A DNA stretch of 31,505 nt, taken from IMG/VR virus record IMGVR_UViG_3300025168_000376, positions 1 through 31,505 of that record; one strand, written 5' to 3'. Of this stretch, positions 2,350 to 20,484 are shown in pieces. Source of the DNA: a virus. Both the position numbers and the translations under genes were made by a program. Each line of letters opens with the position of its first letter. Position 1 is the stretch's first letter. Below the pieces are notes generated by a model. It made no database searches and was not told the DNA's origin. It saw only the letters and a list, made by a program, of their open reading frames with translations.

Positions 2350-4988
2350 CTTTCAGGCAAATCTTTTCCTCTTTCTGATTCTGCCATCTTATTAAGACTT
2401 TGTATCGTGAGAAGAATGCTTGCTCTTAATGCAGTCATAGAGGTAGCTGCTTTCCCTCTCCCAGCCATTGCTTTTGCCATTGTGTCGCTATTCGCTAAGT
2501 TAGCTATAATCCCAATCTGTATTTGCTTGAGCCTAGCATTGAAAGCCTTGGGAAGGTTAGTAAGAGGCGAAAGTTGGGCAGCCGCAATTTCAGCAGCAGC
2601 AATGCTAGACCCAGAATCGGCAGATTTTAAAAATGAAGCGTAAATCTCTGCATCCTGAATTAATTTTCGTTGCTCGCTAGAAAGTATCTGCCAAAACCTG
2701 CCGCTTTTTATTTTTTCAATATAGGAAGTAAACACCTGGGGATCAATTTCTAGGTGACCCTCTCTATAAGAAGTTGTGTTGTCTAATATGTCTTGAAAGA
2801 CCAACTTCCGCAAATCGTTATTTTCAATAACGCCTTGTGAAACTAGCTCCATTAACTCTTGTGATGAACCAGATTCAATAATGGCAGAAACGGCTTGTGC
2901 GTCTGCTGCCTGTTGCTGGAATAATTCGTTCAGAATTCCTTTATCCAGCTGTTTAATGTTTCTTTGGTATACATCCAAGACTGTTCTTATATTTTTAGGA
3001 ACTAAGATCTCTCCACCACGCCCCATTGCCAGAAGCCTGGAATTGATAGTGCCAGGACTTCTAAGCAAGTCCGTAATCAAAGCAGAACTAAACTTTTCAA
3101 ACTCTTCTTTCGGAAGCTCCCTTTTTGCTGCTATTGCAACGTCTTCCGTAATGTCTCCAATCAAAGAATTAAATAATTTTTCTCCAGAACCAATTTCATC
3201 ACGGCTGACGCGAGAAAAAGATAAAGCATCTAAAACAGCCGCCCTGTCCTTATAAATCTTATTTGCCTTTTCAAAGGCTGATTTTACACTTCCTGAAGAC
3301 CCCTCTGGGGAAGTTATAACCTCGTGAAGATCCCTTAAAAGCCTTGAGGCAATGCCCTGCGATTGAGTCTTTGTGCCTGCTCCTGGGGTCTTTTCTGCTT
3401 CATCAATTAGCGTTGATCGTATTTGAGCAAGCGCCCTGGCAGCTTCTGCTGGGTTTTGAGCCTGAAGGTCTTTTAGTTGAGAAATTTTCCTAATTATATC
3501 TTGCAGGGTTGGGCTTAACTCAGGGCCAACCTTTACGTCTTGGCGAACCTCTCTCGTGACAAGCTCCATATCATCTACAGACCGTCCCTGCCAAGATGTT
3601 TCAGACCCGCTTTTTCCTTCTAACCTATATTGGCGGCTTAACTCAGCAGCCTTCTTCTTTAGAGAAGATACATCGTAAACAACGCCTTTTTCTCCAGCTA
3701 ATTCAAAGTAATCATCATATGCTTGGTTTGATAATGTCCTGCTACGCTCTGCAAATTCATCAACGCCTCGGGAAACTGCTTGACCTCCCTGCTCTTTTGA
3801 CGTTTCTGAGAAGGGGAAAGACATGCCTCCTGGGGCTTCTCCAGCTATATCTCTAGTAGCCTCTTTTGATGCCTCCCTTCTCGCTTGGCTTATCAGGTCT
3901 AACAACCCCCTGTCGCCAAGGTTAGCAATTTCTAACTCTAAAATTCCTTCTTCTGACCGAGGAAAAGCTTGCTCTTCTATTGTTGAAGCAACCCCCGCTC
4001 TTCTCCTGCCAGATATGCCTTCAACTCCTCTAGCCCCAGGGTAACCAGAGCCTAATCCTTCTGATATTGCTGTCGCTCTCTGGGAGAGTGGACCTCCAAC
4101 TTGGGCAGCGGGCATTCCCTGACGAACCCCTGCATCTAAAGCTTCCTGCCTTCTTCTTACTAGCTCATCCCCTTCGTTAGACCTGAACCCTCTCCCTAGC
4201 ACGGCGTTACCAACCCTAGCAGTAAAGTCTGCTACCCTGCCTCCAGCCACGTTAATTAGGCCAGACTCAAGAGCCTCTTTCCCGACATCGCCAACCGTTT
4301 GATCCTCTAAGCCAGTAAACTGGTCTATTACCTCATCTAATGTCTTCCCTGCAAAAGCGCCAACAAACTCGTACAAAGCTCTTTGTAAAATGCTTTTCGC
4401 AGGAGCAAAAGCAGAACCAACAGCAGCTACAGTCTCAATAGACGCTAAATTGCCAAGATCAGCAATATCAGAAATATTGAACTCTTTAGGAGAGTCAATC
4501 TTATAAAATTGGCTTTGTTCTTCCCCCTCGCCTGGGATCATAAACCCCATGATTCGACCGCCATCTGGGTCTTCCAAAGCAACAGCAATAGCCTTTTCTG
4601 GCAGCTCCCCTGATTGCTCTAAAAAACGAACAGCATCTGGAGCAGATTCAATTCGAGACAGCTTCGCCCGTAAAGCAGGATTATTTAGATCCCAATCATT
4701 TACGCTGGTTGGTTTAAAAAACTGCTCCCCCAGTTTTGCTCTGTGAAGTGCTTCTTCTTCGGTACTTCTAAGTATTGCTTTTACTCTGGCTTGGTCAGGA
4801 TCATACTTTGGGGTTGGATCTATTAACCCCCTAGAAACGGCTGAATCAAACGCTAATTGGTCTTCGTTGTTTAAAAGACCTCGGCGGTCAGCTTCAATAA
4901 GAACATCTACCCTGCTATATAACTCTGGCCTGTTTGAACTATCTGTATTTTCAGGCATCAAGCTAGCCATTTTTGGATTTTGAGCCAT
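2346..4988 (-). CDS. large putative internal virion protein
   Basis: Predicted 880-aa protein at the distal end of the leftward late block. It starts MAQNPKMASLMPEN, one base after the stop of the upstream 451-aa gene. The sequence is long, mostly helical and rich in charged residues, with a more hydrophobic Ala/Gly-rich segment about residues 178-215 (ASIETVAAVGSAFAPAKSI). I see no lysozyme, transglycosylase or protease signature. Position after the two tail tubular genes and two other structural-type genes is where podoviruses encode internal core or ejection proteins that are pushed into the host with the DNA. The role is therefore inferred from position and size, not from a recognised domain. 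Confidence 0.75.
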   Translation of the reverse strand: MAQNPKMASLMPENTDSSNRPELYSRVDVLIEADRRGLLNNEDQLAFDSAVSRGLIDPTPKYDPDQARVKAILRSTEEEALHRAKLGEQFFKPTSVNDWDLNNPALRAKLSRIESAPDAVRFLEQSGELPEKAIAVALEDPDGGRIMGFMIPGEGEEQSQFYKIDSPKEFNISDIADLGNLASIETVAAVGSAFAPAKSILQRALYEFVGAFAGKTLDEVIDQFTGLEDQTVGDVGKEALESGLINVAGGRVADFTARVGNAVLGRGFRSNEGDELVRRRQEALDAGVRQGMPAAQVGGPLSQRATAISEGLGSGYPGARGVEGISGRRRAGVASTIEEQAFPRSEEGILELEIANLGDRGLLDLISQARREASKEATRDIAGEAPGGMSFPFSETSKEQGGQAVSRGVDEFAERSRTLSNQAYDDYFELAGEKGVVYDVSSLKKKAAELSRQYRLEGKSGSETSWQGRSVDDMELVTREVRQDVKVGPELSPTLQDIIRKISQLKDLQAQNPAEAARALAQIRSTLIDEAEKTPGAGTKTQSQGIASRLLRDLHEVITSPEGSSGSVKSAFEKANKIYKDRAAVLDALSFSRVSRDEIGSGEKLFNSLIGDITEDVAIAAKRELPKEEFEKFSSALITDLLRSPGTINSRLLAMGRGGEILVPKNIRTVLDVYQRNIKQLDKGILNELFQQQAADAQAVSAIIESGSSQELMELVSQGVIENNDLRKLVFQDILDNTTSYREGHLEIDPQVFTSYIEKIKSGRFWQILSSEQRKLIQDAEIYASFLKSADSGSSIAAAEIAAAQLSPLTNLPKAFNARLKQIQIGIIANLANSDTMAKAMAGRGKAATSMTALRASILLTIQSLNKMAESERGKDLPES

Positions 4989-4989
4989 T

Positions 4990-6345
4990 TTAATATCCCA
5001 ACATTGCTTTTACTTCGTCATTAGTCAACTCTGGAAGCGGATCAATTCTTTCCGACTTTCTTCCTACTGATGCTTTTCTAAGGGTAAGAAGTTCTTGGAA
5101 TACCTCCAGACTAGCCAAAACAGCTTCTAAATCGTCTTTCGCTTCAAGTCCTCGTATCACTTTCGCAGCCAACTCTTTTTCTGTTACTGAGGCTCCTCTG
5201 GTACTTTGTATACCCTTTGTTACAGAGCGGGCGTTAGATATTAAGTTGTGTAGTTGTGACCGCACAGTCTTAATACTAGCGGCTTCCTCCGACGAAATGG
5301 GCTTTCCAATTATGCTTGCAAGTGTTTCTACAGCCACTTCTCCAGCGGGGAGTTGCATTAATGTTCCTACTACAGAGGAGTCGATTGCCCATCCTTGTAG
5401 TCCAAAAGCTCTTTCTGGGTTCCGTAAATTAGCGATGCCATCCCTTGTGGCATCAAGCAGACCCTGGAGTTGATCCGTTTGTTGGTCTAAACCCTGATCT
5501 CTGGTGTTAGAACCCACTGTCCGTCCAGTACCCCCCATTCTCACAGTAAACCCGCCCTGTCCGTCTGATACAAATTCCACCCCTCCACTGGGAAGGCTTG
5601 CTCGGGTTCCTTCAACTAATCCCTCTTCAAAAGCTTTATCAATTGCTTCCGTATCTGAAGCAAGAACCGACCTAACAGGAACTCCTTCTTTAGTTGAAAA
5701 GTTAATTAGTTGAGCGTTTACAATCTCTTTTTTACCTAACAGAGCATCTCTTGCTTCCCCTAATGTGTGTGCAGAATCTCCTGCTCTAGCAGCATTTACT
5801 AGAGTCCTGTGAACGCTTTTTAATTCATTATCGGATAATTTCTCCCCAGCAAGATTCTTTTTAGTTTTTAATGCCTGCTGAAGATCCCCAATTACCGCAA
5901 GTGATTGCGCTCTATTCCCTAATATCTCTTGATTTCTGTCTGTCTGGCCTTGCTGATGTTCAAGTACACTTTGCCCATGTGTAATTAGTTCTCTTGCTTC
6001 TCTTGCTTCCGCTCTAGCGTTAGCATCCTCATCTCTTCCAGCTTTTGCCCGCGCAAGCTTTAAAGTAGTAGCAGTGTTTTTCTCTTGTTGAGCTAATGCA
6101 GCTAATTCTGTTGCTCGCTTTTTATCGCCTCTTCTTGCTGCTTGCATAGCTTGAATTGAAAGATACCCAGCAGTGCCTGGAGCAAAACCTGAATCTTTAA
6201 GCTCTTCAGCTTCTTCTCCAAGTATTCTTTTATCTCTCATCTGCCCAGGTACACCACCAATAGCTCCACCAAGGTCACTAAACCCCTGGAGCATACCTCC
6301 TGCATTGCCTAAGTTAGCCAGAAATTGTTGTGAAAATGTAGCCAT
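4990..6345 (-). CDS. putative internal virion protein, 451 aa
   Basis: Starts MATFSQQFLANLGNAGGMLQ with an excellent Shine-Dalgarno (AGGAGATAG just upstream of 6345). The N-terminal 40 residues are Gly/Ala-rich; residues about 75-150 form a long Ala/Glu/Arg-rich helix probably in a coiled coil, followed by a mixed central region (about 215-275, VEFVSDGQGGFTVRMGGTGR) and more helices to the end. No enzyme motif seen. It lies between two other genes of the same character downstream of tail tubular protein B, so an internal core or ejection role is likely. The only spacing to the next gene is one base. Confidence 0.7.
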   Translation of the reverse strand: MATFSQQFLANLGNAGGMLQGFSDLGGAIGGVPGQMRDKRILGEEAEELKDSGFAPGTAGYLSIQAMQAARRGDKKRATELAALAQQEKNTATTLKLARAKAGRDEDANARAEAREARELITHGQSVLEHQQGQTDRNQEILGNRAQSLAVIGDLQQALKTKKNLAGEKLSDNELKSVHRTLVNAARAGDSAHTLGEARDALLGKKEIVNAQLINFSTKEGVPVRSVLASDTEAIDKAFEEGLVEGTRASLPSGGVEFVSDGQGGFTVRMGGTGRTVGSNTRDQGLDQQTDQLQGLLDATRDGIANLRNPERAFGLQGWAIDSSVVGTLMQLPAGEVAVETLASIIGKPISSEEAASIKTVRSQLHNLISNARSVTKGIQSTRGASVTEKELAAKVIRGLEAKDDLEAVLASLEVFQELLTLRKASVGRKSERIDPLPELTNDEVKAMLGY

Positions 6346-6358
6346 TGTCTATCTCCTG

Positions 6359-7201
6359 TTAACTAAACAAGCCGCCTAATGCAGCTTTAGCCATGCTTGT
6401 GCCAAAACCACCAGCAATACCAGCCTGACCAAGTGCTGATGTAAGCAGAGCTTCAAGACCCGCTGCATAAGTCTCTCCGTAAGCATTTGTCGCTTGAGAT
6501 ACTGACTGTCTCTGTTGTTCTGCTCCGGTCATTCCTGGCTGCAACGATCCGACAAGCTGTGCTTGTGGAATGTAACCAGCAGACAACATACCTGCACCCA
6601 ACTGAGCCTGACGTAGTTGCTCCTGACCTGCAAATTCCATAGCACCTAGCCTGTTCCGGCTATAAGCCTCTTCTTGTGCTTTAGCCATTTCTAGTCCTTC
6701 AGGAGTCCCACCAAACATACTGGTTTGTACACCCAGCCGTCCTTGTCCTTGTAAGCGTTCTTCTAGGGCAAGTCTTTCACGTTCTCTCTGAGGATTGATA
6801 GAGTCCATCATTCTCTGGAAAACCTGTTCTTCACGAGCGGCAGTATCTGTTTCTGCTGCCTCAAACATGCCTTGAGATCCTGCTAAACGATTCTCGTAAA
6901 AAGCTTGTTCGTCAGGGGAAAGGTTTAGCCTGTAGTCTGTCTGAGCAGGGACAACAGTACCATCAGGCAATGTAGTCCCAGGCTTTTCCATCATTCCGAA
7001 ATCACTGCCAGTAGCGGTTGTTACGGTATAAGGCTGGAACTTTAGTCTGTCAGAAAGGACACCAGCAAGACCGTCATCTCCTGCAAACTCACCATAAGCC
7101 TGTTCGCCTATCTCGCCTACTTTGTCATAACCCTCTTTTGCAAAAGCAAGCCCTGCGGCAGTGCCTAACCCGCCAAGAACATAATCTGTAGTGGTTGGCA
7201 T
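6359..7201 (-). CDS. putative internal virion or tail protein, 280 aa
   Basis: Predicted 280-aa protein starting MPTTTDYVLGGLGTAAGLAF, preceded by GGAGGG 8-9 nt before its ATG. The N-terminus and C-terminus are small-residue hydrophobic helices (residues about 8-20 and 255-280), while the middle (about 95-215) is rich in Gln, Glu, Arg and Met with AFYENRLAGSQGMFEAAE and ERERLALEERLQGQGRLG. This pattern of amphipathic helices with hydrophobic ends is typical of small ejection proteins of T7-like phages found directly after tail tubular protein B. Function is inferred from that context. The start is coupled by TAATG to a possible 16-codon mini-ORF. Confidence 0.72.
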   Translation of the reverse strand: MPTTTDYVLGGLGTAAGLAFAKEGYDKVGEIGEQAYGEFAGDDGLAGVLSDRLKFQPYTVTTATGSDFGMMEKPGTTLPDGTVVPAQTDYRLNLSPDEQAFYENRLAGSQGMFEAAETDTAAREEQVFQRMMDSINPQRERERLALEERLQGQGRLGVQTSMFGGTPEGLEMAKAQEEAYSRNRLGAMEFAGQEQLRQAQLGAGMLSAGYIPQAQLVGSLQPGMTGAEQQRQSVSQATNAYGETYAAGLEALLTSALGQAGIAGGFGTSMAKAALGGLFS

Positions 7202-7251
7202 TAGGAAGTCCCTCCGCTAATGAAAGTTCTTGTTTCCATATTATTATTCAT
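7201..7251 (-). CDS. possible 16-aa coupling mini-ORF
   Basis: A 16-codon frame (MNNNMETRTFISGGTS) exactly fills the gap between tail tubular protein B and the 280-aa gene. Its ATG overlaps the upstream stop (ATGA) and its TAA overlaps the downstream ATG (TAATG). It contains the strong GGAGGG ribosome site of the downstream gene. It may be only a coupling device that keeps ribosomes moving between the two genes; a functional peptide is not shown. Confidence 0.25.
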   Translation of the reverse strand: MNNNMETRTFISGGTS

Positions 7252-8795
7252 ATCGTTTTACCTACTAAAGCAAGCACGTTTATTTCCTGTAATGACATTT
7301 CTTTACCGTCAATGTCAGATTCCATGTTGATTGACAAAGTTCCACCACTACCGCTCGTATTCACGCTGGGACGAGCGATAAACAGTCCATTGGTGAACTC
7401 GTCTTCATTAAACTCAGATACGTTATATTCAGCTAGAGTAGGGCCAACAAGCGTTATTTCTTCAACAGCAGACGAAGAATTAAAATTATACGCCCAACGG
7501 ACTGCTATAACTGAGTCTTTCCCGCCCAGAATAGTGGCTCTTAGCTTCTTTAGAAATTTAAGTTTGGCCGGATCTCCAAAGGACAGCTCAGGACTTGTGT
7601 ACTTAAACACATAAGAATCGCTATTATCCTGATAACCTGAATACTGTCCAATGCCGTGTTCACTGCCTATTAGCAACGTCCCGTTATCTTGTCTGACATA
7701 AGAAGTAAAACCTGTCTCGGGCCACCTTGTAGCTCGATAAGAACCGTTGTCTAAAGCTCCTCTTAGGTCAAAGCAGAACGTCATGTTCTCGCTAGAAAAG
7801 GTTAACAAGTAGAAGTTTTCTTCTGGATGGTACACAGACCTGAAGAAATCTGTCTCAGCCGTTAACGTAGCAATAATGTCTTTAGTAATCGTCCCTGACA
7901 AACTACTTAGTGGCATGGATTTCTCTTGTATCGTCCTGCCAAAGCTTTTCAGTCCTGTTTGAGACAGGAATAATACATCCGTTCCAGTGGCCTGTACCGT
8001 ATCTCTATCGACACAACCAACCCCGGAAATCGTATCAGCCAACGTCATAGAGGCTGGAGCAGTAGCACCTGAGTAAACAACTACACTGTGTTTGCCAAAA
8101 ATAATCAAATGGTTGTTATGGGCAGACAAAGCAACAATCTCGTCATACCCGTCAGGCCAGACCTTAGATATGTCTATAGAGCCAGAACTGCCACTTGTCC
8201 ATATATGCCCTGCTAAAAGGTCAGACCAGTACACCGTAGACTTATCAGCAGCAAAGTCTGCCGTCCAGAGTCTACCATAAGCTGCTAAAACCTCGTTTCC
8301 AAAGATAGTAGAAGAAATGCCAGCAGCACTATTGACCGAACTAAGTAACACTACGTCAGTGTTTGCCCCGCCTGATGTCCCTGAAGCAACAGTATTATAG
8401 ATTAGAGGGGCGTAACCACGCTGAAAGAAGTAAATGCTGTCGTTAAAGTTAACCATCTTCCAGTTGTCAGCACTAATGCTGTAGCCGCCTGGAGTCTCAT
8501 CAACCAACGTAGTTGTGCCGCTGATTATCTTGTTATTACCAACAGAGAATACCTTGGTTGTTCCTGCATCATTCTTAAACTCTTTGATCGCCCGTATCCT
8601 TCCAGATCCCAGAACGGTCTTGTTTGTAGTAATGACACTTAGTCCTTTACGGGCAGCAATACGTCCACGCTGATCTATCACAGCGTTGTCTGCTATTTCT
8701 GCAAAAGACGGGTCTTGAGCCAAAGGAGAGTCTTCGGTATTAATTCCCTTAAAAGCTGGTGCTACCAGATTGATGCTTGCTAGTTCTTGGGCCAT
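7248..8795 (-). CDS. tail tubular protein B-like (tail nozzle)
   Basis: Predicted 515-aa beta-rich protein that would form the distal nozzle of the short tail. It starts MAQELASINLVAPAFKGINT, followed by the family-typical EDSPLAQDPSFAEIADNAVI and a GRIAARKGL segment, and then many propeller-like strands (GVGCVDRDTVQATG, VLFLSQTGLKSFG). This N-terminal pattern (a short greeting, 'gi-te-spl', then nav-d-rG-l--R-G) is what I know from podoviral tail tubular B and related tail proteins. The gene follows tail tubular A by a few bases and is shorter than T7 gp12 (about 790 aa), as in many marine podoviruses. Confidence 0.82.
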   Translation of the reverse strand: MAQELASINLVAPAFKGINTEDSPLAQDPSFAEIADNAVIDQRGRIAARKGLSVITTNKTVLGSGRIRAIKEFKNDAGTTKVFSVGNNKIISGTTTLVDETPGGYSISADNWKMVNFNDSIYFFQRGYAPLIYNTVASGTSGGANTDVVLLSSVNSAAGISSTIFGNEVLAAYGRLWTADFAADKSTVYWSDLLAGHIWTSGSSGSIDISKVWPDGYDEIVALSAHNNHLIIFGKHSVVVYSGATAPASMTLADTISGVGCVDRDTVQATGTDVLFLSQTGLKSFGRTIQEKSMPLSSLSGTITKDIIATLTAETDFFRSVYHPEENFYLLTFSSENMTFCFDLRGALDNGSYRATRWPETGFTSYVRQDNGTLLIGSEHGIGQYSGYQDNSDSYVFKYTSPELSFGDPAKLKFLKKLRATILGGKDSVIAVRWAYNFNSSSAVEEITLVGPTLAEYNVSEFNEDEFTNGLFIARPSVNTSGSGGTLSINMESDIDGKEMSLQEINVLALVGKTI

Positions 8796-8802
8796 TAGTT
8801 TC

Positions 8803-9450
8803 TCAAGGGGTATAGAAAATAAGTTCTTCTGGGTGTCTGCCAGCGTCCTGCGCTATTGCATCTGACAGGTATTTGTTTGCCATCTCGAAATACTCTGGAG
8901 TAGACGTACCGCCTGTTTCTCCTCGCTCTCTTGAAGCAAAAGCTACCGCAAGATGTAATACAGGGACTGCTGGTATGCTTAAAGTATCAGTGTCTCCGCT
9001 CAGACTAGCGTTACGCTTTGCAGCTTTAAACTTCAAAGAATAAACACCATCAGGCTTTGGGTAAACTTCTAAAATCATGTCACCATTAGAGTCAGCACCG
9101 TTGTAAGTATAGTACTGTGGTGCGCCACTCAGAGGCGTTTGTAGCAACAGTTGTTTTTCAAACCAGTTGCTTGTTCTGTATTCCATAGTGATGTTTGACG
9201 TATCGTTTATCACCAGAAACTCTTTAATCTTATGCCCTGAGCCTGTTAGCGGGTAAGTGTAATCTCCATTAGACGTTGTAATCGTTATTAGAGTCCTTAA
9301 CTCAGACCAATCCCAGGCATTTTCTACAAGGTCTTTAGCATCATTGATTAAATCACCAATTAGCTTGCTGTATGAAGTAGCAGAGACTGTGGAAACCTCT
9401 GTCTCCCGCAGTCTTCTTAATACGTTGTTTACTAAATCTAAATAGGTCAT
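8803..9450 (-). CDS. tail tubular protein A-like (head-tail adaptor)
   Basis: Predicted 215-aa adaptor that would join the portal to the tail nozzle. It starts MTYLDLVNNVLRRLRETEV after AAGGAA 8 nt upstream. Family features are the N-terminal helix with 'l-n-vLrrLre-evst', then LINDAKDLVENAWDWSEL (helix with the conserved Trp-Asp-Trp), a YPL strand after the small loop, and a C-terminal helix AVAFASRERGETGG. Length is close to T7 gp11 (196 aa). It lies directly upstream of tail tubular B, the standard order. Confidence 0.88.
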   Translation of the reverse strand: MTYLDLVNNVLRRLRETEVSTVSATSYSKLIGDLINDAKDLVENAWDWSELRTLITITTSNGDYTYPLTGSGHKIKEFLVINDTSNITMEYRTSNWFEKQLLLQTPLSGAPQYYTYNGADSNGDMILEVYPKPDGVYSLKFKAAKRNASLSGDTDTLSIPAVPVLHLAVAFASRERGETGGTSTPEYFEMANKYLSDAIAQDAGRHPEELIFYTP

Positions 9451-9476: not shown

Positions 9477-11660
9477 TTAAACCAGACCATCAAACAGTCC
9501 CTTTTTACTGCTCGACATATTTTCGCTCATAATTCGATTAAGAGAAACAATATAGTCTTTGCGTGGCTCGTAAGCTACGGGCGTAAACTGAGGTAAGCCT
9601 AAGTCGTCTCTGTTATAAAAAGCATCAGGTGTGCCACCAAGCATACCCCCGCCACCGCCGCCACCGCCTTCAGTAGAATCATCAGGAGGAGGAGTCTCAG
9701 TAGGAGGAGGAAAAGTCGATGTTGGAGGTTCTTCTGGCGGAGGCTCTACTACGTCTGGAGGAATAACAACCTCAGGCTTAGGCTTAGGCTTAGGCTTAGG
9801 CTTAGGCGGCGGCGGCGGCGGAGGTGGAGGTGGAGGCGGCGGTGGTACAACTGTTGGAGGTTTTTTTGGCGGAGGCTCCTCTGTTACCTTTGGAGGAATA
9901 ACAACCTTAGGCTTAGGCTTGGGTTCAAGAGATTTGTTGTGGGACACAACGCCGTCAACCATATAAGTATGAGTAGATGCCGTAGTAAAGTTATAAACTT
10001 TGACATTTTCTTTACGACTTTCAAGGCTTGTAAGTTCAACCGTCCCTTTAGCTCCGATCAATAAATCGCCAGCCTCTAATTGTCCGATTGAGATTCCGTA
10101 ACTTTCATATACAGACGTAGAAGCTTTAGGGTTAACTGACTTCCAACCAGCTTCTGTCATAAATGGATGAGCTTCAGTAGCTGTAATATGTCCATTTAGC
10201 GTCCACAACGAATGATCCTGTGCTTCAATATCGTGTACATAGGATACGGTATCAGTTGTTCCTTCGATGGCCTGTACTTCATCGCCGACTTGAATATTTT
10301 CAATATTCTTTTGTGTTCCATCAGCCATATCAATTTTCGTGCCAGCAATAAAACAAGTTGCTACAACTTTTTCTTTACTTGTATCAATTCTAGGTTCTTC
10401 CGGCTTAGGCTGTTCACCCGGCTTAGGCTCTTCACCCGGCTTAGGCTCTTCACCCGGCTTAGGCTCTTCACCCGGCGGGCGCTCATCACCCGGCGGGCGC
10501 TCATCACTCGGCCGGGGATCTTCATCAACAGGACGCTTATCATCCCCAGGAAGTTGATCCCCAGGAAGTTGATCGCCTGGTGGTTGATCGCCTGGTGGTT
10601 GATCGCCAACAGGCTCCTTCCCAGCAGATTCATCACCACCAGCAATCGCTGATGCAGGCTCAAACCAGTTTTCAGGAAGATTATTAACTGCATTCCTATG
10701 TGCAGCCCCTATTAGTTTTGTTCTAAGTCCCTCTAAAATCCAATTTGATTCTTCCCACCACCCGCGTTTCTCGGGACTATTGAGAATCCCTTGAAATATC
10801 TCTTCAATCTTTCCCATGAGGTCTTCTTCAGAAGTCCCTGCAACTATCTTACCAGCCTCTCTCAAGTCTTCAAATATTCCCCCAACCTCTTCTATTATTT
10901 TCTTAGGAAAAGCTAACAGGTCTGATCCTGCTTTTTGAATTGACCCTGTGATTTCTCCAATAATGTCTGGCAGCGGCACAAACGTACCGTCCGGGTTCCT
11001 GAATTTAATCTTTAGAACATTGCCAGGAATCGGCAGAGCAATGGGAAGCTTGAGCAAGAAACTATCACCGTCTTTTGGATTTATCTCAACACCAATGCCG
11101 CCGCCCTCTAAGGCTTGATTCTGGAGGATTTCCATTACTTCCTCTTCAATCGACTTTTTACCAGAGCCGCCAGCCGATGGCGTCCCCATACTTTTTATTA
11201 CACTAGCCGCTGTTCCTTGCATTGCGTTTATGTACGAAGAAACTTGTAAATCGTCTGCGGTTGTGTCTCCTGTTAAATCAGAATCGCCGTTTAATAAATC
11301 ATCTTCAGGTACTACTTCTTGATTAGAATCTTCAGCAACAGCGCGTAGCACTGATGGCGGTGGATTGTCTACTCGGTCTTGAACAACCAAACGAAGATGT
11401 TCAGGCACATCTTCTATTGTCATCTGCCCAGTCAGAATCAAAAAAGCCGTTGCGTTCCAGGCATGTTGCGCCCCAGACAAAACAACAACTCCAGGGTCGA
11501 AGGAAGGTCGTGTATTGTCAAAAGGATCCTCCCCTCTTCTGGAAGCAAAATCAGGGGAGAAGTCGTATGGATTTTGACTTCTATCCCCTCCGCCTGGATT
11601 CCCTCCGGTTTCGTCACCGTACCCGTAATACCAGTCAGCTATTATATTTTTCAGACTCAT
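9477..11660 (-). CDS. virion-region protein with Hint (intein-like) domain between proline-rich arms
   Basis: Predicted 727-aa protein with a perfect AGGAGGT ribosome site. Residues 1-345 are acidic, Gly/Pro-containing and of unknown fold. Residues about 351-425 are proline-rich repeats (PPGDQ, PPGDER, PGEEPK). Residues 436-575 are a Hint domain beginning CFIAGTKI, with TATEAHPF in block B (T495, H498) and ending VVSHN; there is no room for a homing endonuclease. The residue after Asn575 is Lys, not Cys/Ser/Thr, as in A-type bacterial intein-like domains. A second proline-rich arm follows, with 14 consecutive prolines (606-619), eight glycines (665-672) and a 55-residue tail. It sits immediately upstream of tail tubular A and after the lysozyme, so a tail or virion role with self-cleavage is inferred. 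Confidence 0.85.
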   Translation of the reverse strand: MSLKNIIADWYYGYGDETGGNPGGGDRSQNPYDFSPDFASRRGEDPFDNTRPSFDPGVVVLSGAQHAWNATAFLILTGQMTIEDVPEHLRLVVQDRVDNPPPSVLRAVAEDSNQEVVPEDDLLNGDSDLTGDTTADDLQVSSYINAMQGTAASVIKSMGTPSAGGSGKKSIEEEVMEILQNQALEGGGIGVEINPKDGDSFLLKLPIALPIPGNVLKIKFRNPDGTFVPLPDIIGEITGSIQKAGSDLLAFPKKIIEEVGGIFEDLREAGKIVAGTSEEDLMGKIEEIFQGILNSPEKRGWWEESNWILEGLRTKLIGAAHRNAVNNLPENWFEPASAIAGGDESAGKEPVGDQPPGDQPPGDQLPGDQLPGDDKRPVDEDPRPSDERPPGDERPPGEEPKPGEEPKPGEEPKPGEQPKPEEPRIDTSKEKVVATCFIAGTKIDMADGTQKNIENIQVGDEVQAIEGTTDTVSYVHDIEAQDHSLWTLNGHITATEAHPFMTEAGWKSVNPKASTSVYESYGISIGQLEAGDLLIGAKGTVELTSLESRKENVKVYNFTTASTHTYMVDGVVSHNKSLEPKPKPKVVIPPKVTEEPPPKKPPTVVPPPPPPPPPPPPPPKPKPKPKPKPEVVIPPDVVEPPPEEPPTSTFPPPTETPPPDDSTEGGGGGGGGMLGGTPDAFYNRDDLGLPQFTPVAYEPRKDYIVSLNRIMSENMSSSKKGLFDGLV
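9804..9845 (-). repeat. polyproline tract (14 Pro) / G-rich plus strand
   Basis: Encodes 14 consecutive prolines (residues 606-619 of the Hint protein), followed by KPKPKPKPKP. The plus strand is a run of ggcggcggaggtgg-type triplets. The mix of CCN codons shows selection for proline rather than simple triplet slippage. Translation of such a tract depends on EF-P in bacteria. Confidence 0.85.
9936..10355 (-). other. Hint / A-type intein-like domain coding segment
   Basis: Encodes residues 436-575 of the 727-aa protein. The first residue is Cys (TGT on the minus strand at 10353-10355) and the last two are His-Asn, with Lys then Ser following. Block A (CFIAGTKIDMADGTQ), VGDEV, block B TxxH and terminal block F/G (THTYMVDGVVSHN) are all present, so the N-terminal acyl shift and Asn cyclisation residues are intact. 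The length of 140 residues is mini-intein size. Confidence 0.88.
10401..10508 (-). repeat. six 18-bp tandem repeats (PGEEPK/PGDERP)
   Basis: Six direct 18-bp units in register with the reading frame. Four read cggcttaggctSttcacc on the plus strand and two read cggcgggcgctcatcacY. They encode the proline-rich linker just before the Hint domain. Units are nearly identical at DNA level, so copy-number change by slippage or recombination is likely. Confidence 0.85.
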
Positions 11661-11662
11661 TT

Positions 11663-12151
11663 TCAGAAACCTCCTGTAGAAACAGCTATTACCCTGTCTC
11701 GCAGTCTTTCAGCACGTTCAGGTGTCTGATTTGCCCATCTTGAATCCATCATCTCTTCTGAAGCCCTTTGCCACTCGGAGTCTTCGATAGCGGCCTTGAA
11801 GTTCTTAAACTTGCCTAATCCACCCTGCCCAAGCTGAAAACACATGTTAATCAGGACATGTTGCATTTCTTGTGGAAGCTCTTCCCAGCTATCATAAATC
11901 TTCTGGCATCCATCAATCGCAATTTGTATGTCTCCCTGGAACAGCTCATAACACCTATCCTCTGAGATACGCTGGTCATCAGTAACATCAGCGCCAATCC
12001 CGTAAATGTCTAGGCTGCTTTCTGGATCTGTTTCCAACACTTTATGACCTATTCCGACTGTTTTGTGGTGTTCACTACAGAAATACGCATGGAGTACCTT
12101 GCCTTCGTCAGCAGATATTTCTTCGTAAACCTGTTTTACATCAACAGTCAT
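11663..12151 (-). CDS. T4-type lysozyme (endolysin, GH24)
   Basis: Muramidase that cuts peptidoglycan at lysis. I chose ATG 12151, one base after the upstream stop and after GGGAAA, giving 162 aa, almost the T4 lysozyme length (164). The longer frame to 12199 would overlap the holin candidate by 47 nt. The catalytic pattern is E-8-C-5-T: Glu16 in DEG, Cys25 and Thr31 before VGIGH, the variant in which Cys replaces Asp20 of T4. A Trp-Arg-containing C-terminal segment (SEWQRASEEMMDSRWANQTPERAERLRD) matches the family. There is no signal peptide or SAR helix, so release would depend on a holin. It follows the EF-hand membrane protein in the lysis region. Confidence 0.93.
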   Translation of the reverse strand: MTVDVKQVYEEISADEGKVLHAYFCSEHHKTVGIGHKVLETDPESSLDIYGIGADVTDDQRISEDRCYELFQGDIQIAIDGCQKIYDSWEELPQEMQHVLINMCFQLGQGGLGKFKNFKAAIEDSEWQRASEEMMDSRWANQTPERAERLRDRVIAVSTGGF

Positions 12152-12152
12152 G

Positions 12153-12485
12153 TCATTTCCCGTTGTTCTTGGTATAGGCTTGAGCGCCAAACCAGACACT
12201 AATTAAACCGCCGACACTGACAAAGTATATTGAACTCATGGCCTCAAGCAACTCAGCAGCCTTATCCAAGCCTAAAAAGTCGCAGAAGACAACTAGAGCA
12301 GGGTAGAGCAACATGCCTAGTAGTGCCAACCAGCACATATTCCGCTGGGCATCCGCTTTTTCATGCGTTGCTTCTAATTGCTGCAACCGCGCAGTTGTTT
12401 CAAGCTCCTCATCTGAAACAATACCATCGCCATCTGCATCGTATTTTGCGTATTCACTGCCTGGCTCTAGTTGTTTTGGAGTCAT
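12153..12485 (-). CDS. EF-hand membrane protein, candidate holin
   Basis: Predicted 110-aa protein. Residues 16-27 form a textbook EF-hand loop (DADGDGIVSDEE: ligands D16, D18, D20, S24, E27 with Gly at position 6 and Ile at position 8). After a charged helix come two membrane segments, about residues 50-69 (MCWLALLGMLLYPALVVFCD) and 85-103 (SIYFVSVGGLISVWFG), and a short polar tail. The gene lies directly upstream of the lysozyme with a one-base gap and overlaps the lipase stop by 4 nt. Two-helix topology, size and position fit a class II-like holin, with a cytoplasmic or periplasmic calcium-binding head. Holin function is inferred; the EF-hand and helices are seen. Confidence 0.78.
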   Translation of the reverse strand: MTPKQLEPGSEYAKYDADGDGIVSDEELETTARLQQLEATHEKADAQRNMCWLALLGMLLYPALVVFCDFLGLDKAAELLEAMSSIYFVSVGGLISVWFGAQAYTKNNGK

Positions 12486-13054
12486 ACCTTCCTCTGTGGC
12501 GCTTTCATTTTCACATAATTCTTTACAAAATGATCTTTAATGTAGCTTTTTGGCTTACCAAAGGTTAATAGCTTGTTGTGTCGCCGCATCAGCGGAGGAA
12601 TCATTGGAACCATATCCTTCCCATGTCGGTACTGAGTGACCAGTATTTGATCCAAAATCTTCAGTCGTCCACATCGAGGAGCGCCAAATGTCACTATCTG
12701 TGCAGGAGGTATCTCATCTCTCGTCATTAAAGCACCAGTAATAAGAGCTACTGCACCTCCCAGACTATGCCCCGTTAACTCTATTTTCTTGTAATCAATG
12801 TCCTGTTCTAAGCACATTGATGTGACTTTGTTCACAAGCCTTCTACTTGCCTTGAGAAACCCAGCAGGACACCAGCCTAGCTCTCTCGTCCATAGAGGAA
12901 GGATGCGTATGTCTCGTATTGCATCCTTGGGTTCATCAGTACCCCTGAAAGCAAACACATTGCCCTTTACCAGCACCTCAATATTAGCTTCCTCGAAAGT
13001 GCTTTCTTGATAGCTTTCTCCGCAAATCCTAGCTAGCTTCTGATGACTAGTCAT
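12482..13054 (-). CDS. class 3 lipase-family serine hydrolase
   Basis: Predicted 190-aa alpha/beta hydrolase of the fungal-type class 3 lipase family. Visible features are the FRGTD oxyanion-side strand (residues 36-40), the nucleophile elbow GHSLGGA (Ser97), FGAPRCG after the next strand, Asp147 in YRHGKDMVP and His175 in IKDHF, which complete a Ser-Asp-His triad. It lacks a signal peptide, so it would act from the cytoplasmic side or after holin opening. Its start overlaps the lipoprotein gene (13047-13054) and its stop overlaps the EF-hand gene, so it is embedded in the lysis region. A role in attacking membrane lipids at lysis is inferred; a virion role is also possible. Confidence 0.9.
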   Translation of the reverse strand: MTSHQKLARICGESYQESTFEEANIEVLVKGNVFAFRGTDEPKDAIRDIRILPLWTRELGWCPAGFLKASRRLVNKVTSMCLEQDIDYKKIELTGHSLGGAVALITGALMTRDEIPPAQIVTFGAPRCGRLKILDQILVTQYRHGKDMVPMIPPLMRRHNKLLTFGKPKSYIKDHFVKNYVKMKAPQRKV

Positions 13055-14177: not shown

Positions 14178-16730
14178 CTACCGATTATATTGACTGCGTA
14201 TCATTTCTTGTAGTTTTTCTTGGGTTTTACCCGCCATCCTGTAAAAACCTGCTACGTTATCAGCAGTCTTCTGCCCTTTATATACTTGCGAACTATCGTA
14301 CCAACTCTGCTTATCTGCCAGTTGTGTTTGTGAGGCGTACTCACTAAACCCCGCAGAATACCCAATATACGAAACAACAATAGTCTGGTCGCCGTAATCA
14401 TTAGTGTTCTCGTTGTCTTGTTGTAACTTGTTTAATTCTGCTTGTAAGTTTGATGCTATGACAGTTGAACTAACAGAGTCTGCCAAACTTTCTACTGCGC
14501 TTGATTGTCTTTGCTCTTGGAACGTAGGTGCTTCAACTTCAAACTTAGCAAAATCGGGTGCTGTGTTACTTAAAAATTGCCCTATTGATTGCCCTGCTCC
14601 TAATGCATCATCAAACGAACTTTCAAAGTTTTGATCAGCTATTGTAAAGTTAGAACCATCGTCAAATGTTAATTCTTGTTGTTCTTCTTCTTGTTGTTCA
14701 GCCACCTCAAAAGCAGTTACCGCAGGGCCAGAATCAACTATCTCTACTGCCTGGATCTGCACTTGCCCTGTAGATTGCTCTTGTTGTTCTACTACAAAAG
14801 TATTACCTGTAGATTGCGTTATTTGCTGGGAACTTGTAGCTACAGCACTGCCACTTGAATAAGAGTTTGAATTAAAACTACCGCCTGTTGTGCTACCTGA
14901 TCCCTCGTCTAATTGTTCTTGTAAGACTTCAGCAACTGTTACTCGCTCTTCTTGTGTACCACCAAAAGCTATTGCCGATACAACTGCTTGTGTACTAGAA
15001 GCAATAAATCTTGTGCTTTTAGATTTACCCTCCTTTTCTTCTTTGAAGAACTCTTCTTCATCTTCTTCATGTGCTTCATCAAACTCTTGAAAAACTTCTT
15101 CTTCGTGTTCTTCTATTGCTTCACGCTCAATGTCTTCTAACTCTTCTGCATATAATATTCTATTCTCTTCAACAGGCTCCCACTCTTCTTCAGTAAATAT
15201 TTCTACACCTATTGTTTCTTCTAATATATAAATTTCTTGCTCTGTAGGGTTTTGAGCTAGTAGCTCTGCCTCTTCTAAAACCTCTACCTCATAAAATTCT
15301 TCTTCGTATAACTCCTCTAAGTCAGTTGCAGCTACAAATTCTTCTTCAGAAAACGCTATATTTTCTCTCTGCTCAAATTCTTCTACCTCATAGGCATTCC
15401 AGTCAGCATCTGTCGCATACAAGATTTCTTCAGGGTTTGTTACATACAAGACTTCTTCTTGCGCTAACATTTGCTGCTCTTCGTATGATTCTTCCCAAAA
15501 ATCCTCTTCTTGAGCGTAAACACCCATACTTTCATCTGTCTCAGTTCCGTACTCTTCTTGTATTGTTTCTCCTGCACAGCCGCCTTCAGAGCAAGGATCA
15601 TCAAGACCTAAATACTCGTCATCGTAACCGTAATCTGTATATTCCTCATTGCCATATTCATCATAACCATCGTCATAGCCATACTGACTGTCATCTGTTC
15701 CATATATGGCATCTTCTAACGCTTGTTGTTGTGCCAGGGCAGACGAGTAACCATCACATGAACTAGAATAAAATACGTCTAAGTCGCATTCGTATACTAA
15801 TTTAGCGGCTGCATAACCATTACAACTTTCATCATGCAAAGTATTAAGCCCACACTGCTGGACTAAGTAAGCTGCTGCATACCCAGTACACTCTGAGTTA
15901 TATAGTGAATTAATAGCACATTGTTGCGCGAAGTAAGCTGCTGCGTATCCTGAACAGGTGCTAGCGTATAAGGCATTTATCTCACACATTTCTGCCTGTG
16001 TTCCTGAGTATAGTGAACCACCATTTTCTATATCAGGGCCACCGTATCCAGCTAAGTATGCGTCTAATGTAGCGTACCCACTCTGACCATCATTGTAGTA
16101 TAGGAATGTTTTAGTATCTGTCGGGGTAGTAGAGTGTTTACCTTGTTCACCTATAACAACATCATGGTTAATAATGTCTAGCTCTCTGTACCTGAATTCG
16201 TATGAGTTATTGGCGTAAAGGATTGCTTCAAAACTATTGCTTGAACTTCTTTGGAACTCTCTCAGGTAATACCAACCAAAGACAGCATAGTCTCCGAAGT
16301 CTTTAAACAACATCTTAGAGGCTTGTCCTCCTGACGCTGTACCCCTTATTAAATCAGTCCATAGAGGATATAAGGTATAGTCTCTGTAAGGTAAGGATTG
16401 AGGTGTGAAGTCTGAACAGTTAGATGAATTACCGCCAGCCGATCCACTTCTAAGGTTTACACAGCCATTAGTAGACATTCTAGCGTGTGACCAAGTTTGC
16501 CCCCAACGATTCCATTCCATTCCCAGAGATACTTGGTTTGAATATTGGTCATCACTAGCGTTTAAGTTAGTAGTACCTGACATGTTATAGAGGTCTACAA
16601 GGTCTTGACCACCTTCGTAGATGTATACTCCACTGTTGTAACAATTCTGGCTGTTAGAACAGGTGCCGTTATTGTCTGCTATTGCATTACCAACAAACAG
16701 AATCCCTAGCAGTAAAAGAAGCTTTTTCAT
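14178..16730 (-). CDS. exported NIDO-like protein with Cys repeats and acidic region
   Basis: Predicted 850-aa protein with a Sec signal peptide (MKKLLLLLGILFVGNAIADN, cleavage probably after AIA). Residues about 50-215 look like a nidogen-like (NIDO) domain: YPLWTDLI, FGWYYLREFQ, FEAILYANNSYEFRY. Residues 249-336 are four exact-length 22-residue repeats, with Cys at 249/271/293/315 and again ten residues later, and a shared GYAAAY core. Residues about 335-380 are Tyr/Asp/Gly-rich, and 390-570 are extremely Glu-rich. The rest is Gln/Ser/Thr-rich with a helical C-terminus. Its ATG overlaps the stop of the 401-aa exported protein (ATGA). It lies among tail fibre and lysis genes; function unknown, possibly surface-exposed or periplasmic. 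Confidence 0.85.
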   Translation of the reverse strand: MKKLLLLLGILFVGNAIADNNGTCSNSQNCYNSGVYIYEGGQDLVDLYNMSGTTNLNASDDQYSNQVSLGMEWNRWGQTWSHARMSTNGCVNLRSGSAGGNSSNCSDFTPQSLPYRDYTLYPLWTDLIRGTASGGQASKMLFKDFGDYAVFGWYYLREFQRSSSNSFEAILYANNSYEFRYRELDIINHDVVIGEQGKHSTTPTDTKTFLYYNDGQSGYATLDAYLAGYGGPDIENGGSLYSGTQAEMCEINALYASTCSGYAAAYFAQQCAINSLYNSECTGYAAAYLVQQCGLNTLHDESCNGYAAAKLVYECDLDVFYSSSCDGYSSALAQQQALEDAIYGTDDSQYGYDDGYDEYGNEEYTDYGYDDEYLGLDDPCSEGGCAGETIQEEYGTETDESMGVYAQEEDFWEESYEEQQMLAQEEVLYVTNPEEILYATDADWNAYEVEEFEQRENIAFSEEEFVAATDLEELYEEEFYEVEVLEEAELLAQNPTEQEIYILEETIGVEIFTEEEWEPVEENRILYAEELEDIEREAIEEHEEEVFQEFDEAHEEDEEEFFKEEKEGKSKSTRFIASSTQAVVSAIAFGGTQEERVTVAEVLQEQLDEGSGSTTGGSFNSNSYSSGSAVATSSQQITQSTGNTFVVEQQEQSTGQVQIQAVEIVDSGPAVTAFEVAEQQEEEQQELTFDDGSNFTIADQNFESSFDDALGAGQSIGQFLSNTAPDFAKFEVEAPTFQEQRQSSAVESLADSVSSTVIASNLQAELNKLQQDNENTNDYGDQTIVVSYIGYSAGFSEYASQTQLADKQSWYDSSQVYKGQKTADNVAGFYRMAGKTQEKLQEMIRSQYNR
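15723..15986 (-). repeat. four 22-residue Cys repeats in the 850-aa protein
   Basis: Encodes residues 249-336. Consensus C-x2-N/D-x-L/F-x3-S/E-x-C-x-G-Y-A/S-A/S-A. Spacing of both cysteines is exactly 22 residues in all copies, while codons differ between copies, so the repeat is old and under protein-level selection. Confidence 0.85.
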
Positions 16731-17932
16731 CCTTTTTCTTCTGCTTTACGTTTTGCTGCTTTCCTTGCTGCTCTCTTTTCTGCCCTAGTAGGTGCTATCT
16801 TGTTAAGGTATGCTTTTTTGTCAGGTCTTTGATCTGTATTTTCTTCCCAAGCAACCCTAGCTGCTTCCCCAATCTCTCCTTCGTAAGGGCAAGGAGTGCC
16901 AGCCATCAGCATAGAAGTAAAGACTCGCTCGTCCTGGCACATTAGGCTTACTGCCGCAACTTTCATCCCCATGTCGTAAAGCGTCTTAGATAATTTAATA
17001 CGCTCACAGTTCATATCTCTAACGCTCTTACCTGCTGATAAACCAAATAATTGCCCTTGGAAAGCGCCACTGATACCCGTGGTACATAAATCCTGAGAGT
17101 AACTAGCACCAATGGAAGGAGCTATTGCGCTTGCAGGAGGTGCCTTTGTCTCAATCTCTTGCTTGATTGTTTGATTAGTTTCATTCCTGTTGGTGTTTTC
17201 GTTCTTATTGGTATTTTCGTTCTTATTGTTTGTTGTCACATTACTATCTGACGTACTTTCACTTTTATTAGTATTGGTGTTGGTGTTGTTTGAAGTGCTG
17301 TCAGAAGTATTAGTATTGGTGTTGGTGTTATTCGATGCGCTATTGCTATTAACATTTTGATCAACAGTTGACGTAGTTGTATTTGTGTTGTTGTTATTAG
17401 CTGTTGAATTTACCGTTGAATTATTAGTGTTGGTGTTGGTATTTGTGTTGGTGTTGGCGTTGGTGTTATTCGTTCCGCCTGAACTTACATTGTTATTTGT
17501 GTTGTTACTTGTACTCGTATTGGTATTCGCATTGGTGTTGATATTGGTGTTACTTCCGCTATAAGTCGTATTATTAGTGTTAGCGTTTGTGTTGGTATTA
17601 GCGTTGGTGTTCGTGTTTACGCTGGTGTTGGTATTAGTGTTCACGTTGGTGCTGCTATTAGTGTTCACATTAGTATTAGCGTTGGTGTTCGTGTTGGTGT
17701 TCGTGGCCGTTGACGTACTCGTATTTACATTAGTATTGGCGTTAGTATTTGTATTGGTGCTGGTATTCGTATTGGTGTTCGTATTGGTATTGGTTCCTGT
17801 TGAAGTAGTCGTCTGGTTATTATCTTCACAAAATTCTGTACCAGATGTACAGTTACCTGATTGGGCAGCAAACAAGTTCACAGGCGTTAACATAGCCAGG
17901 GCAGCTACAAAAATGAATATTTTTTTTATCAA
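16727..17932 (-). CDS. exported Asn/Thr-repeat protein with conserved Cys domain
   Basis: Predicted 401-aa protein with a Sec signal peptide (MIKKIFIFVAALAMLTPVNL, cleavage near FAA). The start is TTG 17932, the only start in frame before the signal peptide, after AAGGA 9 nt upstream. Residues about 38-255 are almost pure Asn/Thr/Ser repeats (NTNTNAN, NTNVN). Residues about 275-355 form a compact domain with Cys283, Cys309, Cys332, Cys348 (DLCTTGISGAFQGQLFG, NCERIKLSKTLYDMGMKVAA, MAGTPCPYEGE) that I recall from other marine-phage hypothetical proteins. The last 25 residues are very basic. The pair with the 850-aa gene is translationally coupled. Function unknown. Confidence 0.82.
   Translation of the reverse strand: MIKKIFIFVAALAMLTPVNLFAAQSGNCTSGTEFCEDNNQTTTSTGTNTNTNTNTNTSTNTNTNANTNVNTSTSTATNTNTNTNANTNVNTNSSTNVNTNTNTSVNTNTNANTNTNANTNNTTYSGSNTNINTNANTNTSTSNNTNNNVSSGGTNNTNANTNTNTNTNTNNSTVNSTANNNNTNTTTSTVDQNVNSNSASNNTNTNTNTSDSTSNNTNTNTNKSESTSDSNVTTNNKNENTNKNENTNRNETNQTIKQEIETKAPPASAIAPSIGASYSQDLCTTGISGAFQGQLFGLSAGKSVRDMNCERIKLSKTLYDMGMKVAAVSLMCQDERVFTSMLMAGTPCPYEGEIGEAARVAWEENTDQRPDKKAYLNKIAPTRAEKRAARKAAKRKAEEKG
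17168..17821 (-). repeat. Asn/Thr low-complexity repeat tract
   Basis: Encodes about 218 residues dominated by NT, ST and AN pairs, with irregular 6-bp and 12-bp periodicity (plus strand gtgttggtatt-like). Frequent synonymous changes interrupt the DNA repeat, so it is maintained at protein level but is still prone to slippage. Confidence 0.85.
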
Positions 17933-18439: not shown

Positions 18440-20484
18440 TATTGTCCTTTGTCTGGGAATGCTTCTGTCGAGGGGGTAAAGTTGCTGGTGTAACGGGCAA
18501 AATTGCTGATTCTAAACTCATCAATGTAGCCGTCCCACGGAGTTGCTACCGCTGTAGCACTTGACCACTCACCCCCGATATAAAATATGCCTTCCGTTAG
18601 AGCAAATGCTGCGGCGTTTGTCGCTGTTGTGCTGCTTGCAGTACCATCGAGATAACATTTTATGACGTTAGAGGTATCACGCACTAGTGCAACGTGATGC
18701 CAAGTGTCTACTGTAAACTCTCCACCAGTGAAAAAGTTTATATAGCTAGTCGCAGCAGTGTACCCTCGAAAAGTACTGCCACTGATGCCAAGCTCTATAG
18801 TGTACTGACCAGCACACCACAAAAAAGCAGTGCCAGTATCGTCGGCTCTAGCCCAACACTCTATGGTGAACGGGCCTTCAAGCGATGAAACGTTATAACG
18901 ACTTGCATCACCTAAACGCACTTGTGCGGCATCGCCAGTTCCATCTAAAGCTAAAGAAGCTGTGCCAAACTTTTTCTGAGTTGTGCTGGAATCAGCATTA
19001 CCAAGCAACAGCATAGTATTCTGTGCCGCACTATCAAACACTTGCGCGTCAGCCGTATTGAGCAAGAGTTTAGTGTTGGTGATGGCAGCGAGTGGGGCTG
19101 TTGGAACAGTGTATGTTGTGCCTGAATAAACGGCTGTCCCTTTGACGATACGAACATCTGATATTAGCCCCTTGTACGGGTTGGTACTGCTTCCAGTGCT
19201 ACCGATTTGCAACGCAGCACTGATGTCGCCTATGCTAATACCTGAAGCACTGCTGCCAGACCTAACCCCGTTTATATAATGGTATCCTGTGCCACCGCTT
19301 ACAACAAATGCGACATGATTCCACTGCTCATTCATTTGAGTAACTGTGGCACTGTTGGACGTTACAGCACTGCCAATGCCTTGATAAAACTGCATTGAAG
19401 TTGGTGGATTCCCAGCCACGCTATAATAGAAACCAGATGATCCATTTTGCTCAATCACGGTATTAAGAGCTTCGTTTTGATGTGGGTTCACCCACGCTTC
19501 AATCGTAAAGGTATCACCTAGATTCCAATCGGCACTGTCTGCCGCTGACAAATATTCACTACCCGTGCCGGGGAAAAAAGCACTTGCCCCATTGACTGCT
19601 GTGTCATAGCCCTTGCTGGTCAGGATCGGGGTAAAGGCGGATATACTGGGCGTTAAACCACCTCCAGTTGTATTTTTTGTTATCACGTGGGCTGAGGCAG
19701 AATTATCTTTAAATTGGTTAGATTGACAGGTTAGTAGCTTGGTGTTTGTAATTGCAGTGAGTGGGGCTGTGGGCGCTGTAAAGTTGCCTGTATATAAACA
19801 AGTGCCTTTCAATATTCTGAAATTAGATATGTAACCAAGGCAACTATCTTGGAAGGCTCCATTGTAAAGTGATGCCCCAACTGTAGCCGTCCCATCGGCA
19901 TCCGCAGTTACTGTAAAAGTAGCTCCTAGAGCCGTACCATCCACCCAGCAAGTAACAAGATCACTACCGTTTCGTGTGACTGCGACATGATGCCAAACAC
20001 CCACCGTTAACGGACTGCCTGTACTAAAAACCTTATAACCACCCTGATAAAGTCTCAGCGTAGTCCCTGAAAGAAGACCAAGCTCCATATCGTTAGCATT
20101 AATAACATCGCCGATTGCAAAGAAATATTGATTGGCCGTTGAGTTTAACCGCACGAAAAACTCAATGGTATATTCGCCATCTAACGTAAAATCAGAACTA
20201 CTCGCGGCTTGAATCGCAGTTTGTAGATGGGATGATCCACGAGTTCCTCCACCAAAATGATTTGACCACTCACCATCTACCCTAGCAAAAGGCCCGAAGG
20301 AACCTTGAGAGACATTCCCGGCTGTGGTTATTGTATGGTTGCTGTCTGACCCATCGTCATAAACAATGTTAGTGCCATTGTTAGAGCCATCAAAGTGGCT
20401 TAAAAAACTGACGTTATCAAACTCATCGTCGCTTGGTAGATCAACACCACCACTACCCATCAGTATTTTAGTAGCACCACTCAT
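18439..20484 (-). CDS. tail fibre with three LamG/concanavalin-like domains
   Basis: Predicted 681-aa protein made of three jelly-roll lectin-like (LamG-like) domains, at about residues 25-245, 300-470 and 480-675. Each contains the typical strand pairs: YTIEFFVRLN with WHHVAVTRNGS; FTIEAWVNPH with WNHVAFVVSG; FTIECWARAD with WHHVALVRDTS, followed by a D/N-G loop (WVDGTA, YINGVR, YLDGTA). Each domain ends in an 'fris...f..sTcLYtgnFT.Pt.pl' segment. It is coupled by TAATG to the repeat tail protein upstream. LamG domains bind sugars, so this is the likely receptor-binding fibre. There is no signal peptide and no tailspike hydrolase motif. Confidence 0.88.
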   Translation of the reverse strand: MSGATKILMGSGGVDLPSDDEFDNVSFLSHFDGSNNGTNIVYDDGSDSNHTITTAGNVSQGSFGPFARVDGEWSNHFGGGTRGSSHLQTAIQAASSSDFTLDGEYTIEFFVRLNSTANQYFFAIGDVINANDMELGLLSGTTLRLYQGGYKVFSTGSPLTVGVWHHVAVTRNGSDLVTCWVDGTALGATFTVTADADGTATVGASLYNGAFQDSCLGYISNFRILKGTCLYTGNFTAPTAPLTAITNTKLLTCQSNQFKDNSASAHVITKNTTGGGLTPSISAFTPILTSKGYDTAVNGASAFFPGTGSEYLSAADSADWNLGDTFTIEAWVNPHQNEALNTVIEQNGSSGFYYSVAGNPPTSMQFYQGIGSAVTSNSATVTQMNEQWNHVAFVVSGGTGYHYINGVRSGSSASGISIGDISAALQIGSTGSSTNPYKGLISDVRIVKGTAVYSGTTYTVPTAPLAAITNTKLLLNTADAQVFDSAAQNTMLLLGNADSSTTQKKFGTASLALDGTGDAAQVRLGDASRYNVSSLEGPFTIECWARADDTGTAFLWCAGQYTIELGISGSTFRGYTAATSYINFFTGGEFTVDTWHHVALVRDTSNVIKCYLDGTASSTTATNAAAFALTEGIFYIGGEWSSATAVATPWDGYIDEFRISNFARYTSNFTPSTEAFPDKGQ

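Follow-up and report, generated by a model that had tools for sequence, protein, structure and literature searches.

A Hint domain with a conserved basic +1 residue in the proline-rich linker of a phage virion-region protein: a putative self-processing cassette

The window, that is, the whole stretch of DNA analysed, is a 31.5-kb virus record in IMG/VR, and all of its features described here lie on the minus strand. A gene of this marine phage running from position 11660 to 9477 encodes a 727-aa Hint-bearing protein (9477..11660), which is preceded by a phage lysozyme gene (11663..12199, PF00959). The next gene encodes an SU10-type adaptor (8803..9450; SU10_adaptor PF24175, 58.6 bits; phrog_10775 'tail protein') and is followed by one for a nozzle/tail-tubular-B-like structural protein (7248..8795; phrog_5107, phrog_3287 and phrog_578); the portal of the window is likewise SU10-like. 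An earlier note on this DNA had put the Hint-bearing gene among virion genes, directly before tail tubular A. These neighbours agree with the general placement, and a gene with a connector role does adjoin, since the SU10-type adaptor is the functional counterpart of T7 tail tubular A; however, its family is SU10_adaptor, and it matched no T7 gp11 family in Pfam or PHROG. From gene order only, we infer that the window protein is a virion component. Also encoded in the window are a class 3 lipase (12482-13054, PF01764), whose gene adjoins that of the lysozyme among the virion genes, two long proteins (14178-17932) whose N-termini resemble signal peptides, one being very Glu-rich and one Asn/Thr-rich, with no Pfam match for the first, and a tail-fibre-like protein (20484-21518) in which (S/T)TAELNILDGVT is repeated many times.

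The window protein is a succession of short conserved regions and low-complexity arms. Residues 72-98 (11367..11447) resemble the CD1375 family (CD1375_fam, NCBIfam, 23.7 bits against a cut-off of 22.5) and phrog_1382 (E 0.0014), a 25-residue motif that is normally a tiny stand-alone phage protein and is found here inside the N-terminal part. A middle region (aa 166-304, 10749..11165), delimited by iterative HMM searches, is common to relatives with and without the Hint; its structure model (pLDDT 52) was set aside. The Hint domain (aa 436-575, 9936..10355) then lies between two proline-rich arms, as the earlier note had described. The N-side arm (aa 346-435, 10356..10625) carries PPGDQ and PGEEPK repeats and is rich in Pro, Glu, Asp and Gly (26% Pro, 16% Glu), and the arm behind the Hint (aa 576-690, 9591..9935; 38% Pro) includes 14 consecutive prolines (aa 606-619, 9804..9845). 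The protein ends in a tail (aa 691-727, 9480..9590) that is common to relatives with and without the Hint and bears the family motif YGLPQF..V.Y...DY...L.RI..ESLF, which reads LGLPQFTPVAYEPRKDYIVSLNRIMSENM in the window protein; the part C-terminal to the Hint amounts to 152 aa. A copy of the gene that is 98% identical is carried by locus L002, where the repeat number in the PPGDQ/PGEEPK arm is unlike that of the window gene.

The Hint domain is real and not a chance resemblance, as Pfam and PDB sequence matches, the structure model and the fold search all show. In the profile search that the earlier note had asked for, Vint (32.2 bits) and, across residues 446-575, PT-HINT (30.1 bits) matched the window protein above their cut-offs, while an AXH match over the same region stayed below its cut-off and was taken as fold similarity, not membership. 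Sequence matches in the PDB were bacterial intein-like (BIL) domains (E about 6e-5) spanning residues 436-575. The AlphaFold2 model of the domain has a pLDDT of 95, and its best Foldseek matches were again BIL domains (E 1.8e-10, TM 0.83), with BIL2 of Tetrahymena (6y75/6tmm, TM 0.83) and the Clostridium thermocellum BIL (2lwy, TM 0.75) outranking all true inteins. The domain has exactly the 140 residues, C1 to N140, that had been claimed for it. Its first residue, Cys436 (10353..10355), the predicted nucleophile of an N-S acyl shift, is its only cysteine; block B contains the TxxH motif (T495-H498, 10167..10178), and the domain ends in S-H-N, with His574-Asn575 (9936..9941) as predicted site of Asn cyclisation. 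In a 46-row alignment, C1 and the terminal HN are invariant and the T and H of block B are at least 90% conserved. The residue at +1 is indeed lysine (Lys576, 9933..9935), not C/S/T, and a classical or class 1 intein was rejected on this ground. A Hint fold with N-terminal Cys, TxxH, C-terminal His-Asn and no C/S/T at +1, lying in a variable region of a non-conserved protein (a Pro-rich linker with Hint-less relatives), is characteristic of A-type BILs, and the A-type kind proposed in the earlier note is the nearest known one, where nearest refers to fold and sequence and not to a tree with reference BILs. No close cultured relative of the window Hint was found: identity reaches about 33% at best, and those full-length matches that were checked or annotated are helicase inteins.

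The Hint domain is under purifying selection. Most Hint pairs with substantial dS gave dN/dS values of 0.12-0.15 (0.119 for the window Hint and that of locus L085), within a range of 0.04-0.41 over all computed pairs, the highest value being that of L008/L113, which differ by few substitutions. The +1 lysine is retained with either codon, AAA or AAG. That the domain folds but does nothing, as a dead relic, is most improbable given the low dN/dS at high dS and the invariant catalytic residues.

Relatives of the window protein were gathered through the neighbouring nozzle-like gene (7248..8795). Directly upstream of the adaptor, they encode fast-evolving linker proteins, and those closest to the window end in the family tail motif. 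Not all members of this family carry the Hint: among 71 loci with any upstream ORF, many of them truncated, it was found in six (L008, L012, L019, L020, L021 and L023), and L003-L005 keep the middle region and the tail without it. Two further loci, L086 and L087, found via the Hint itself, bear two Hints. Two of the six (L019 2-1444 and L020 1-891) have, at the position of the window Hint, one of a different subtype (CPSPDMPIKI...SHNK[ST]). Wherever the Hint is present, C1, the T and H of block B and the HN are kept, so the expected conservation of the Hint residues in homologues is borne out, together with the purifying selection. The suggestion of the earlier note that self-cleavage might mature a tail structure probably does not extend to the family, since presence in only 6/71 relatives, many with truncated upstream ORFs, makes a general tail-maturation role unlikely. 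Among the relatives, no Hint-less allele nearly identical to the window gene was found, and at the DNA level there was no similar cultured phage.

The same Hint module recurs in phage structural proteins that are otherwise unrelated, again within proline-rich linkers. L085 has one in a 2044-aa DUF4815-like tail protein that is unrelated to the window protein; at the protein level, this Hint is 82% identical to that of the window. The DNA homology between the two genes (79%) begins at base 1306 of the window gene, with the Cys1 codon, and stops at base 1727, within the codon for the +1 Lys, so that Lys576 belongs to the homology block, which ends at its codon. Outside this block, the DNA matches between the two are proline repeats only. 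L086 and L098 have nearly the same homology limits, and in the tree the window Hint joins L085 and L086 (93/98), away from the other Hints of its own protein family. In the L085 tail protein (913-7044), as in that of L191 (1229-7477), a second, divergent Hint-like domain (CVHVDSY...HHN) lies at the C-terminus, after the Hint and a polyproline arm. Alleles with and without a Hint coexist for a portal-adjacent protein of another phage group: between L258 (Hint) and L200 (Hint-less), the flanks are 98.4% and 100% identical, and a 546-base Hint-holding stretch stands in place of a 135-base linker, the Hint-less allele coding for an uninterrupted chain. Since the linker itself is swapped, this is an exchange as a linker cassette and not a clean insertion, and a need for chain continuity is not strictly proven by this pair.

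Such sporadic presence, allele polymorphism, transfer among unrelated hosts and tandem duplication would also be expected of a selfish or passenger mini-Hint that spreads among disordered phage linkers and excises itself without benefit to the phage. This is a possible, if doubtful, account, as the module lacks a homing endonuclease domain, its 140 aa being fully used from C1 to N140, and sits in linkers rather than in conserved active sites. It is compatible in its chemistry with the explanation that we favour, and differs from it only in the matter of benefit.

We also compared the residue that follows the Hint. In a first scan of 30 viral clusters (70% identity), +1 was Lys in 16 and Arg in 5, compared to about 0-11% Lys at positions +2 to +10; among cellular Hints, 3/18 had a +1 Lys. 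The query of a second scan was the N-terminal part of the Hint only, and so could not select for the C-terminus; here, 35 of 37 Hint clusters had a basic +1 residue (27 Lys and 8 Arg, the others being 1 Ala and 1 Gly). The +1 Lys is hence a hallmark of the class and not an idiosyncrasy of the window protein. The repeat unit of tandem arrays is CF...HNK. In a Vibrio phage helicase, by contrast, the same searches found a true intein that is followed by Cys.

The fold, the conserved residues and the selection on them, together with the +1 Lys/Arg, the transfer and the alleles, suggest the following chemistry. Cys436 would attack the preceding peptide bond in an N-S acyl shift aided by T495 and H498, and Asn575 would cyclise with the aid of His574, which would free Lys576 and let the 140-aa Hint leave the chain. 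The freed amine of Lys576 would then attack the Cys436 thioester, leading to a relinked chain of 587 aa (435+152), as in A-type BILs without C/S/T at +1, with double cleavage into 435, 140 and 152 residues as a minor or alternative outcome. As the nucleophile at the N-terminus and the HN at the C-terminus are both conserved, a reaction at each junction is suggested, and we regard processing at both ends as very likely; for a Hint so processed, ligation would have slightly better than even odds and cleavage only slightly worse than even. Two reviews (PMC7664689, PMC5874633) have A-type BILs cleaving and in some cases splicing without a +1 nucleophile, contrary to a third (PMC7765530), in which A-types are unable to ligate. 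The expectation of cleavage, possibly with splicing, put forward in the earlier note is supported as an expectation.

The abundance of lysine at +1 raises a different route, in which Cys436 would hand the N part to a Lys side chain and so form an isopeptide link, either at the +1 residue or on a different virion or host-surface protein. Tetrahymena BIL2, the top fold match (TM 0.83), reportedly splices by forming an isopeptide bond with the epsilon-amine of a Lys (PMC8616854), and +1 is Lys in 27/37 clusters and kept by AAA or AAG. However, Arg, a poor nucleophile, takes this position in 8/37 clusters, which indicates charge rather than acylation; moreover, identity to BIL2 is only 24%, and the acceptor described for BIL2 is a lysine in the ubiquitin-like domain that comes after it. 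Such acyl transfer is thus very unlikely. Quite unlikely, too, is a broader reading in which the near-mandatory +1 Lys of the phage structural class would serve amine-directed protein splicing or conjugation in virion assembly, relinking through its alpha- or epsilon-amine or onto neighbouring virion or host-surface lysines and so linking tails covalently without ATP.

Evidence on relinking versus breakage comes from VrlC-type tail proteins, five of which (L308, L343, L346, L330 and L342) have one to four tandem Hints directly before a conserved DP[LV]AQ[ST]F motif. When the flanks of L346 are joined, the resulting sequence has matches in 1378 phage records, and in at least 906 of these the match spans 80% or more of the query in one place; the usual state of VrlC is therefore an unbroken chain. 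Joined VrlC flanks match the VrlC of many cultured phages without a Hint, and no Hint was seen in the VrlC of cultured phages. For the window gene, no precise empty site was found, and the portal-adjacent group has a swapped linker, so that VrlC comes closest to one. In Sinorhizobium phage phiM12 (KF381361, 54324-55376), the VrlC region is annotated as three hypothetical proteins where relatives have one. The unbroken VrlC chain favours excision with ligation over breakage; however, it does not prove ligation, because the two halves might remain together after cleavage and some relatives terminate at HNK. The protein of L134 (1-2514) stops immediately after HNK with the next gene starting right behind, which looks like a gene fission behind the Hint, and those of L133, L135, L138 and L157 likewise end exactly in HNK.

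In these HNK-ending proteins, nothing large is left to ligate, and this would fit cleavage, double or single, without ligation, the Hint being a self-cutting linker that parts a 435-aa from a 152-aa piece, of which the latter may dock to the adaptor by its conserved tail motif. Lys/Arg at +1 would work against transesterification and in favour of Asn cyclisation, the class is not C/S/T at +1, unlike the HN|C of the Vibrio phage helicase intein, the flexible arms suit separation, and characterised BILs yield mainly cleaved products according to one review (PMC7664689). Nevertheless, Hint-less alleles keep both parts in one chain, a cut in VrlC would break what at least 906 phage records have as one continuous chain, and both active ends are conserved, which together leave cleavage without ligation rather unlikely. 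In summary, the window gene probably encodes a linker protein with an active A-type-BIL-like Hint cassette and a basic +1 residue, the most likely product being the relinked 587-aa chain.

In phages, Hint domains are generally regarded as enzyme inteins. What emerges here is a distinct class in linkers of connector-region, VrlC-type tail and portal-adjacent proteins, with tandem copies, turnover of alleles and a near-fixed +1 Lys/Arg. Activity of these Hints would mean post-translational self-processing of phage structural proteins, would offer mini-Hints from nature for which no +1 nucleophile is needed, and would allow a direct test of the +1 amine against mere positive charge. No paper describing a phage-structural Hint class was found in a search that most subscription papers lay outside, and the class is widespread and apparently undescribed.

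Several known systems share parts of this design. Pretoxin HINTs usually precede a C-terminal toxin. The window Hint matches pretoxin/polymorphic-toxin HINT (PF07591) above the Pfam cut-off, and its plasmid matches (31-35% identity) are mostly annotated as such, but it is followed by a Pro arm and a short conserved phage tail peptide; toxin delivery was rejected, as Pfam found no toxin in the 152-aa Pro-rich tail with its conserved phage motif. With 140 aa and no endonuclease region in Pfam, the domain is not a homing intein, and with a terminal HN and a Pro arm instead of a sterol-recognition region behind it, it is not a Hedgehog-type Hint either. Uncultured Caudovirales proteins in BFVD, one with collagen repeats, share the Hint fold in phage proteins, a likeness by annotation only. 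In Achromobacter phage JWF, a tail-fibre-like protein (L186 3077-4528) has a C-terminal Hint without the terminal HN. The class 1 mini-intein of the Vibrio phage 268E42.1 helicase agrees with the window Hint in catalytic residues and in size (about 33% identity). It interrupts a conserved helicase motif, however, and its +1 residue is Cys (FQDE|CFPAGT..VVHN|CHH), whereas the window Hint has a basic +1 residue and lies in a disordered linker. The best whole-domain match, BIL2 of Tetrahymena BUBL1 (6y75, 6tmm; 24% identity, TM 0.83), also lies between independent domains, with Lys acyl transfer reported for it (PMC8616854); it differs in its eukaryotic polyubiquitin-like locus, and has zinc-linked control and a next-domain lysine acceptor. 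The A-type BILs, such as that of C. thermocellum (2lwy, TM 0.75), share the fold, Cys1, TxxH, the terminal HN and the lack of C/S/T at +1, and likewise occupy variable regions of non-conserved proteins, as two reviews describe them (PMC7765530, PMC5874633). The phage class differs from them in its structural host proteins, a +1 residue that is nearly always Lys/Arg, proline-rich arms and frequent head-to-tail arrays of the unit CF...HNK, and looks like a phage-structural branch of the A-type BIL domains that would process both junctions.
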